5,531 nucleotides of DNA from assembly GCA_001797815.1 (NCBI GenBank), contig MGQK01000129.1, positions 29,974 to 35,504 of the forward strand, written 5' to 3'. The notes under the pieces were generated by a model. It worked only from the letters and a program-made list of their open reading frames with translations. It did no database searches and was not told the DNA's origin. The position numbers and the translations under genes are program-made. Positions 2 to 3,839 of the stretch are shown here, piece by piece. Source of the DNA: Deltaproteobacteria bacterium RBG_13_61_14. GTDB taxonomy: Bacteria > RBG-13-61-14. Position 1 is the first letter of the stretch, and each line of letters opens with the position of its first letter.

Positions 2-436
2 TCCAACCTGCTCTTGACCGAGGCCTTCGGCCCGCATCAGCGCCTGGGCGGGATCATCACCTCCGCCCCGCTCGCGCCCGACCCGCGGCGCGAATGGGAC
101 CTTTGCCTCCCGGGTTGCACTCTCTGCGAAAAGGCCTGCCCGGTGGCCGCGCTCAAAGAGGGGAAATATGATGTGGACCCTTGCTTCACCTACTGGTCCA
201 CCGGCTTCGAGCGGATGCGGCCGCGGCGGCTCCGGGAATGGCCGGCCTATCTCCGCATGCTCCTTCAGCATCAGCGCCGGCGAGACTGGTTCATCGAGAT
301 GGGCCAGACCATGATCACCGACGTGGATTTCTGTATTGAATGCATGAAAGCCTGCCCCGTGGGCGAGCGCGGGAAAGCCCCGCGGCCGCGCCCCCGCTCG
401 TCCGATGACTCTGTCCAGGCTCAGGATACATGGTAA
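2..436 (+). CDS. 4Fe-4S double-cluster protein, C-terminal part (epoxyqueuosine reductase-like), partial
   Basis: This is the 3' end of a gene that enters from the left edge; the frame is open from base 2, so the TTG at 14 is not a credible start. The visible 144 residues begin with SNLLLTEAFGPHQRLGGIIT, which resembles the segment just before the Fe-S domain in epoxyqueuosine reductase (QueG) and reductive-dehalogenase-like proteins. Cys35, Cys39, Cys42 and Cys46-Pro form a first [4Fe-4S] motif. Cys61 followed by Cys111-x2-Cys114-x3-Cys118-Pro fits a second cluster whose fourth ligand lies between the two motifs, as in QueG. The first motif has three residues between its first two cysteines instead of the usual two. 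The last 24 residues are Arg/Pro-rich and polar, probably a disordered tail. A role in electron transfer or a reductive reaction is inferred. Whether it is a queuosine enzyme cannot be decided without the catalytic N-terminal part. Confidence 0.8.
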   Translation, partial: SNLLLTEAFGPHQRLGGIITSAPLAPDPRREWDLCLPGCTLCEKACPVAALKEGKYDVDPCFTYWSTGFERMRPRRLREWPAYLRMLLQHQRRRDWFIEMGQTMITDVDFCIECMKACPVGERGKAPRPRPRSSDDSVQAQDTW

Positions 437-1080: not shown

Positions 1081-2202
1081 ATGAGCGCCGTTTTCCAACT
1101 CCTTGCCGACTCCGGCTTCGCCCAGCTCAGCCCGGGCCAGGCGGTCATGATCGCGGTCGGCCTGGTCCTGGTCATTCTCTCCATTTCCCGCGACCTCGAG
1201 CCCCTGCTGCTGATCCCGCTCGGCTTCGGAATCGTGCTCGCCAACATCCCCCTCTCCGGGCTCCTTGACCCGGCACCCGGCGGCATCTTCTACTACCTCT
1301 TCCAATATACCATCCTCAACAACTTCGCGCCCATCTTCCTCTTCTTCGGCGTCGGCGCCATGACCGACCTCGGCCCGCTCCTCGCCCGACCCTCCCTCTT
1401 CCTCATCTCCGCCCTGGCCCAGGCCGGCCAGTTCCTGGTCCTGCTCCTCGCCCTCGTCCTCGGCTTCGGGCTCAAGCAGGCCGCGGCCATCGGCATCATC
1501 GCCGGCGCCAACGGCCCGGTCACCGTGTTCATGGCCACCCACCTGGCGCCCGAGCTTCTCGGCCCGATCGTGGTCACCGCCTACCTCTACATGGCGCTGG
1601 TGCACCTGATCCAGCCGCCGATCATGCGCCTGCTCACGACCGCGGAGGAGCGCAAGATCGCGATGGCCCAGCTCCGCCAGGTCTCGCGCCAGGAGCGCAT
1701 CGGCTTCATCCTGGCGGTCACCGTGCTCGCCTGCCTGCTCCTGCCCGTCGGGACCCCGCTCTTCGCTTTCTTCATGGCCGGCAACCTGCTCCGCGAGTCC
1801 GGCCGCACCGACCGCCTCGCCGGCGCCGCGGCCAACGAGATCACCAACCTCTTCATCCTCTGCCTGGTCTTCGGCCTTTCCTACACCCTGGCCGCGGACC
1901 AGTTCCTCCACCGCCAGACCCTGCTCATCCTCGGACTGGGACTCCTCGGTTTTGCCTCCGCCACCGCCTTCGGCATCCTCATGGCCAAAGTCCTCAACTA
2001 CTTCAGCCGCGGACAAGTGAACCCACTGATCGGCGCCGCCGGTCTGGCCGCGGTGCCCCATTCGCCCCGCGTGGTCCAGATCGAAGGCCGCAAAGCCAAC
2101 CCCGACAACTTCCTGATCATGCACGCCATGGGGCCCAACCTCGGCGCCATCATCGCGTCCTCGGTGGTCGCCTGCGTGATCTACTCCCTGCTCGCGCACT
2201 GA
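1081..2202 (+). CDS. oadB: Na+-translocating decarboxylase beta subunit family protein (OadB/GcdB/MmdB type)
   Basis: This family forms the membrane channel of Na+-pumping biotin-dependent decarboxylases (oxaloacetate, glutaconyl-CoA, methylmalonyl-CoA), coupling decarboxylation of carboxybiotin to Na+ export. The 373-residue length matches the shorter family members. The family's conserved stretches are all present: LLLIPLGFG (42-50), FGVGAMTDLGPLLA (89-102), the GA-x-GP motif (142-146), LAPELLGP (155-162), AYLYMAL (167-173), LIQPPIMRLLTT (176-187), NPLIGAAG (314-321) and HAMGPN (348-353). Around ten hydrophobic segments are visible. Two deviations matter: the GADGP motif reads GANGP (Asn144), and the Ser of NPLIGxAGxS is Ala323. 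By alignment these are Klebsiella OadB Asp203 and Ser382, described as coupling residues. Tyr170, Asn314, Gly318 and Arg330 (Tyr229, Asn373, Gly377, Arg389) are kept. ATG 1081 is the only start in its open stretch but lacks a clear Shine-Dalgarno. No alpha or gamma subunit is adjacent, so substrate and ion are unknown. Confidence 0.9.
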   Translation: MSAVFQLLADSGFAQLSPGQAVMIAVGLVLVILSISRDLEPLLLIPLGFGIVLANIPLSGLLDPAPGGIFYYLFQYTILNNFAPIFLFFGVGAMTDLGPLLARPSLFLISALAQAGQFLVLLLALVLGFGLKQAAAIGIIAGANGPVTVFMATHLAPELLGPIVVTAYLYMALVHLIQPPIMRLLTTAEERKIAMAQLRQVSRQERIGFILAVTVLACLLLPVGTPLFAFFMAGNLLRESGRTDRLAGAAANEITNLFILCLVFGLSYTLAADQFLHRQTLLILGLGLLGFASATAFGILMAKVLNYFSRGQVNPLIGAAGLAAVPHSPRVVQIEGRKANPDNFLIMHAMGPNLGAIIASSVVACVIYSLLAH

Positions 2203-2996: not shown

Positions 2997-3839
2997 CTAG
3001 CCCTCTTGCCGAGCGATGCCCTCGGCCAGGCCCAGGTTGACCTTGCCGTTGGGCAGGCGAAAAACTTCCGGCCCGAAGAGCGGATCCAGCGGCGAGGCGC
3101 CGTCCGGCACGGCCCGCAAGGCGATGCTGACATTGAACACGGTCTCCACTTCCTCGGACAGCTCGGCCAGCAGAGCGCGCAATTCCGCGAACGCGCTTCG
3201 CGGCAGGATGAACTCGACCAGGGCCGAGATTACCTTTTCGTCCAATACCTCGGGTTTGAACGCGCCGGTCTTCGAGTCCGCGATCAACTCCGCCACGGGA
3301 TTATCCGCGACCGCCGGATAACCGTGTTCCGTGAATTTCCTGACCACCCGTTCCACCTCGCGGAGCCGGGCGCCCAGGGCCGGCCGGCCCAGCTCGACGA
3401 AGACTCCCATGAAGCCCGGCTGGTAGCGGCGGGTGGAGTCGTTGGTCTTGATGCCCTCGGTGCCGCGGCCGGGCACGCCGGTGGACTTATGCTCGACTAA
3501 CGGATTGGAAAAAGCCTCGCGCAGGGTGCGCGGCCATTCCAGCTTGCCGGGTTGGATGGCGTCTCCCGGACAGACCCGCGAGCGCTGGCACACCCCGCAT
3601 TCGGCGCACTCCTCCGGATCGGTCCGGGCGACTTCGTCCAGCCGGATAGCGCCCATCGGGCACAAGGGCACGCAGCTTCCGCAGCCGATGCAGCGGGAAG
3701 GATCAATCCAGCGGTGCGGCACCTCCGCCGCAGCCGGCCGGGAGCAGGCTTGGGGAGACGCCGCGACCGCGGCCGCGCCGACTGCGGAGCCGATCAGAAA
3801 GTGCCGCCGATTGATCGCCGGTCGCTTGTCTTCGGTCAT
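2997..3839 (-). CDS. Tat-exported 2x[4Fe-4S] ferredoxin-like protein
   Basis: The 280-residue product starts with a twin-arginine signal: Asn10-Arg11-Arg12-His-Phe-Leu-Ile, then a hydrophobic Ala/Gly-rich stretch to about residue 28 and an AAA cleavage region near 36-38. It should be folded with its clusters in the cytoplasm and exported by Tat. Cys50-x2-Cys53-x2-Cys56-x3-Cys60-Pro is a canonical [4Fe-4S] motif. The second, Cys78-x2-Cys81-x2-Cys84-x5-Cys90-Pro, has two extra residues before its last cysteine. Residues 121-165 (GVPGRGTEGIKTND, then FVELGRPALG) look like a conserved segment I associate with uncharacterised Fe-S proteins, but I cannot name the family. The rest is mixed helix and strand without cysteines. 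ATG 3839 is chosen over a start further upstream because the Tat signal begins right there and ATGA overlaps the hydrolase stop by 4 bases. Probably an extracytoplasmic electron carrier. Confidence 0.85.
   Translation of the reverse strand: MTEDKRPAINRRHFLIGSAVGAAAVAASPQACSRPAAAEVPHRWIDPSRCIGCGSCVPLCPMGAIRLDEVARTDPEECAECGVCQRSRVCPGDAIQPGKLEWPRTLREAFSNPLVEHKSTGVPGRGTEGIKTNDSTRRYQPGFMGVFVELGRPALGARLREVERVVRKFTEHGYPAVADNPVAELIADSKTGAFKPEVLDEKVISALVEFILPRSAFAELRALLAELSEEVETVFNVSIALRAVPDGASPLDPLFGPEVFRLPNGKVNLGLAEGIARQEG
3001..3006 (-). promoter_or_regulatory. Ribosome binding site AGAGGG for the GTG-start gene
   Basis: On the minus strand AGAGGG lies 6 bases before the GTG at 2994, inside the end of the upstream Fe-S gene. 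It decides for the GTG start and supports coupled translation. Confidence 0.5.

Follow-up and report, generated by a model that had tools for sequence, protein, structure and literature searches.

In decarboxylase pumps, Asp203 of the beta subunit is considered indispensable for catalysis as well as for Na+ binding. The closest described system is the OAD of Salmonella, whose first Na+ site has been assigned to Asp203 in the tip of hairpin 1 and Ser382 in the tip of hairpin 2; neither D203A nor S382A shows Na+ binding in ITC, N412A at the second Na+ site has a milder effect, and substitutions of Asp203 or Ser382 severely disrupt activity in the enzymes of both Klebsiella and Salmonella (PMC7274780). 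In the model proposed there, Na+ and a proton contest a single cavity.

The window, meaning the whole stretch of 5,531 nt that was analyzed (G000:C129:29974-35504), comes from a genome of 4.7 Mb in 132 contigs that is 95% complete. Positions 1081-2202 of its forward strand encode an intact, free-standing OAD_beta (OadB/MmdB/GcdB-like) membrane protein of 373 aa, hereafter the window beta, which lies above the curated cut-offs of both Pfam OAD_beta PF03977 (409 bits, cut-off 31.6) and NCBIfam TIGR01109 (384 bits, cut-off 190.6). Its sole structure-solved relative by sequence is Salmonella OadB (6iva, 6iww). With OadB of Salmonella and Klebsiella it shares homology over the full length, 48% identity over the structural alignment and the predicted fold, as the AlphaFold2 model (mean pLDDT 91.3, pTM 0.87) matches 6iww with a Z of 49.4 and an rmsd of 2.1 over 359 residues. 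Domain E of OadB is missing, as it is from other family members. The reading frame (GC3 0.93, GC2 0.41) has a codon pattern like that of the other beta gene of the genome. Downstream of its 3' end lies a perfect palindrome of 28 bp (GTAGGGGCATGGCATGCCATGCCCCTAC, 2246-2273), possibly a terminator or a repeat element, and a similar palindrome (GTAGGGGC...GCCCCTAC) is found on the same contig (L005 7764). A short direct repeat, CTTGGTGCCTTGGTGACTTGGTGG, is located upstream of the start at about 1002-1024.

The clearest departure from OadB is seen at the two hairpin tips. Codon 144 (AAC, 1510-1512, forward strand) encodes Asn at the Asp203 position in the tip of hairpin 1 (IIAGANGP), and codons 323-324 (GCC GCG, 2047-2052, forward strand) encode Ala-Ala at Ser382/Ala383 in the tip of hairpin 2 (NPLIGAAGLAAVP), with serine in neither the 382 nor the 383 register. 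An earlier note had aligned Asn144 with Asp203 and Ala323 with Ser382 at a constant offset of 59, which also set Tyr170, Asn314, Gly318 and Arg330 on the conserved Tyr229, Asn373, Gly377 and Arg389. The codons, phmmer against Salmonella OadB (6iva) and the MAFFT alignments all bear this out; no different acidic residue aligns at the Asp203 position, and chance or misalignment is excluded by identical columns in all alignments made. The description of both positions as Na+-pathway residues likewise agrees with their place in the first Na+ site and with the loss of Na+ binding in the alanine mutants (PMC7274780).

Around these tips the cavity is kept. Alignment places conserved residues at Glu40 (codon 40, 1198-1200), Arg304 (codon 245, 1813-1815), Asn311 (codon 252, 1834-1836) and Asn412 of the second Na+ site (codon 353, 2137-2139), all on the forward strand, in addition to Tyr229, Arg250, Arg258, Asn315, Asn373, Gly377, Arg389 and Ser419. 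Thus, all residues reported as essential (PMC7274780), Glu40 among them, are retained except 203 and 382. Position 392 is Gln; it varies across the family, and its substitution is tolerated in Klebsiella OadB (PMC7274780). Loss of the carboxylate at 203 would shift the competition between Na+ and the proton in the cavity.

The two replacements differ greatly in how rare they are. Position 203 is Asp in all of 93 relatives, which span many phyla and include ten from plasmid records, and in the aligned set of 95 proteins Asn203 occurs only in the window beta and in one other protein, the L113 beta described below. Positions 382-383 read Ser-Ala (SA) in 68 of the relatives, Ala-Ser (AS) in 24 and Ser-Cys in MadB, so that 92 of 93 are SA or AS and Ala-Ala is unique to the window beta in this set. 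Ala382 is therefore common, always with the serine moved to 383. Residue 206 (Salmonella numbering) covaries with the register of the hairpin 2 serine across the 95 betas: it is Met in all 24 AS proteins and also in MadB, Thr, Pro, Ser or Val in SA proteins with Asp203, and Val and Ala in the two Asn203 proteins.

Searches of genomic DNA gave a similar picture for Asn203, although scans with the pattern II[GA][GA][AS](D/N)GP undercount because they require the exact flanking motif. In 80 genomes of one phylum they returned 53 Asp and no Asn matches, and in 249 genomes of another phylum two Asn matches among at least about 150 matches listed. One of these two was a true OAD_beta (L113), while the other (G1498) fell by chance in a long ORF unrelated to the family. 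When 1,191 genomes from three further phyla were scanned for Asn alone, four matches came up, none of them in an OAD_beta or other OadB relative, and a scan of IMG/VR found no relative.

The changes at 203 and 382 belong to a general divergence, as about 13 more near-invariant positions differ and the protein forms a long branch of its own (1.4 to 1.8 changes per column). Near-invariant columns were defined as at least 95% conserved. The window beta departs at 15 of 87 such columns in the first set and at 14 of 78 in the larger one, against a median of 0 among members, and this is the highest number among the aligned members except MadB; its best relative is about 50% identical. The earlier statement that only the Asp203 and Ser382 equivalents differ accordingly holds for the six residues then listed and not for the whole protein. 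Nor is there support for Asn and Ala as a defining pair or clade, as no relative found shares both, and Ala by itself is hardly unusual when it marks a separate group of 24 members with Ser383. The suggestion of a kept fold with a changed pair is upheld for the fold, and a change in or loss of Na+ coupling can fairly be read from it. The case for the pair as a unit, on the other hand, loses ground, given that Ala382 is frequent in company with a moved serine, that divergence runs through the whole protein and that an intact operon has Asn203 without Ala382. An origin of the window beta by recent duplication of the operon beta in the same genome was rejected, since a grouping of the window copy with the operon copy and the relatives from its order gave an AU p of 0.008 (a quick tree with a long branch). 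A joint clade of the window beta and the L113 beta, which would imply a single origin of Asn203, gave an AU p of 0.44 and was neither favored nor rejected.

The second Asn203 protein (L113 5462-6592, genome G1429) reads IIGGANGP at hairpin 1 and NPLIGSAGVSAVP at hairpin 2, and thus combines Asn203 with a retained Ser382. It is encoded by the last gene of a four-gene operon (Carboxyl_trans, OAD_gamma, Biotin_lipoyl, OAD_beta), with genes for MeaB and methylmalonyl-CoA mutase nearby on the opposite strand. Like the window beta it has GANGP at hairpin 1 and a residue 206 that is neither Thr nor Met. Unlike the window beta it keeps Ser382 and a complete operon, differs at just 4 of the 76 near-invariant positions, and groups with Clostridia/Fusobacteria betas, namely those of Acetoanaerobium, Ilyobacter, Peptoclostridium and a Peptococcaceae genome (99% SH-aLRT). 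The complete operon around this protein suggests that a decarboxylase may well function with Asn203. The second beta of G1429 is canonical, with Asp203 and Ser382, and solitary (L114 3390-4577, reverse strand). Since Asn203 is found in the operon and Asp203 in the solitary copy, Asn203 neither requires nor predicts operon loss and is not simply the sign of an orphaned copy.

Genomic context sets the window beta apart from OadB and from the MmdB/GcdB-type betas, whose family and length it shares. Profile searches of the contigs found no biotin carrier or carboxyltransferase family on C129, and no gamma-like gene was seen among the neighboring ORFs; matches to the biotin domain lie on C8, C16, C84 and C130 and those of carboxyltransferase type on C16, C121 and C130. 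The canonical beta of the same genome (L007, contig C8) differs in having GADGP and GVSAV and in standing next to genes for OAD_gamma and a biotin carrier. The other two genomes of the order each have a single beta, adjoining a biotin carrier. The window beta is instead surrounded by ferredoxin-like genes, two acyl-CoA dehydrogenase-like genes, a CocE/NonD hydrolase and a rubrerythrin-like ORF, and these neighbors suggest no decarboxylase pathway. A cluster that includes window positions 2-436 and L006 2670-3443, 5025-6059 and 8495-9976 combines several iron-sulfur (QueG/ferredoxin-like) proteins with an SCP2 protein and two genes of acyl-CoA dehydrogenase type, and a ferredoxin-like protein with a Tat-like signal (RRHFLIGSAVGAAAVAAS; 3000-3839, reverse strand) adjoins the hydrolase. 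Solitary beta genes are not exceptional, and linkage is not universal: among loci flanked by at least 2.5 kb on either side, carrier and carboxyltransferase genes are lacking from 3 of 46 of SA type and 8 of 16 of AS type. AS-type betas are often solitary (L023, L030, L036, L037, L039, L043, L080, L081). A FlK-like thioesterase lies upstream of those in Selenomonadaceae (L023, L081), and a HutP-family gene is found upstream of one in Thermoanaerobacter (L036), with another near madB of Rhodobacter (L103).

Based on this comparison, the window beta is best read, tentatively, as a diverged, free-standing paralogue of the carboxybiotin decarboxylases in which Na+ coupling is altered or lost, a reading that is given somewhat less than even chances. 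The protein probably still handles carboxybiotin, as the elevator fold is kept along with Glu40, Arg304, Asn311, Asn412, Ser419 and Arg389, and for carriers and a carboxyltransferase it would depend on genes at other sites in the genome. Now that Asn and Ala stand in for both side chains of the first site, Asp203 and Ser382, the normal cycle of two Na+ has probably ceased to drive decarboxylation or be coupled to it, which leaves either an altered stoichiometry or an uncoupled reaction. The family profiles, the fold, the kept essential residues, the intact reading frame with its native codon pattern and the L113 operon all speak for such a paralogue. The partner complex is an assumption, however, because C129 holds no carrier or carboxyltransferase and no gamma-like gene is a neighbor. 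In addition, Asn and Ala together may simply be dead, given that substitutions of Asp203 or Ser382 severely disrupt activity (PMC7274780). The more specific proposal, that an OadB-type beta decarboxylates carboxybiotin in the absence of the first Na+ site and is naturally uncoupled or re-coupled, Asn203 being present also in at least one intact operon of the methylmalonyl-CoA decarboxylase type, is possible but doubtful.

Three alternatives were weighed, here in descending order. Perhaps the window beta is a decaying, non-functional extra copy whose Na+ site was lost under relaxed selection while the canonical operon beta was retained. The 14 to 15 near-invariant changes also fit this explanation, as do the long branch, the solitary position, the presence of gamma and biotin carrier genes beside the canonical beta on C8 and the single beta in each of the two other genomes of the order. 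The intact frame of 373 aa with native codons, the well-predicted OadB fold and the retention of every essential cavity residue save 203 and 382 speak against it, and decay is considered unlikely. Less likely again is a pump subunit of the usual Na+-coupled kind that still binds Na+ through Asn203 and backbone carbonyls and serves a biotin carrier encoded elsewhere. CitS offers a precedent for such binding, as its Na1 ion is coordinated by backbone carbonyls and nothing else (PMC4718727, PMC5451387). For Staphylothermus, partner genes at unlinked loci have been suggested (PMC2678158). Asn412 in the second site is kept, and Asn203 does occur in the otherwise normal L113 operon. Yet D203A and S382A are each sufficient to abolish Na+ binding (PMC7274780), whereas the window beta is changed at both and has no serine at 383 either.

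CitS (2HCT) is also the model for the last alternative, a stand-alone, elevator-type secondary carboxylate transporter whose hairpin 1 tip, GANGP, has drifted towards the GGNG type of CitS. CitS shares the elevator fold and two hairpins with the window beta (Z 16.1, rmsd 4.8 to 5.1), its hairpin 1 reads GGGNGAG, its Asn186 and Ser405 bind citrate (PMC4718727), and the window beta is free-standing as such a transporter would be. This likeness of fold is not specific, because NapA, NhaP and ASBT also resemble the window beta, if more weakly. At the sequence level hhalign, run with one CitS sequence, detected no relation (probability 0.3) and gave no alignment of Asp203 with Asn186; their equivalence is a guess from the motif. 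The hairpin 2 serine is moreover lost, the residues of the carboxybiotin cavity are conserved, and Asn203 is found in a decarboxylase operon as well, which makes a transporter of this kind improbable.

The window beta is thus a rare, testable variant of a known protein and not a new kind of system. The recurrence of Asn203 is a more useful result than the pair of replacements, as it allows the part played by Asp203 to be tested in proteins that occur naturally. Natural Asn203 proteins that keep the cavity, one of them in a full operon, offer a direct test of whether decarboxylation can be separated from Na+ transport, and of which residue supplies or relays the proton.
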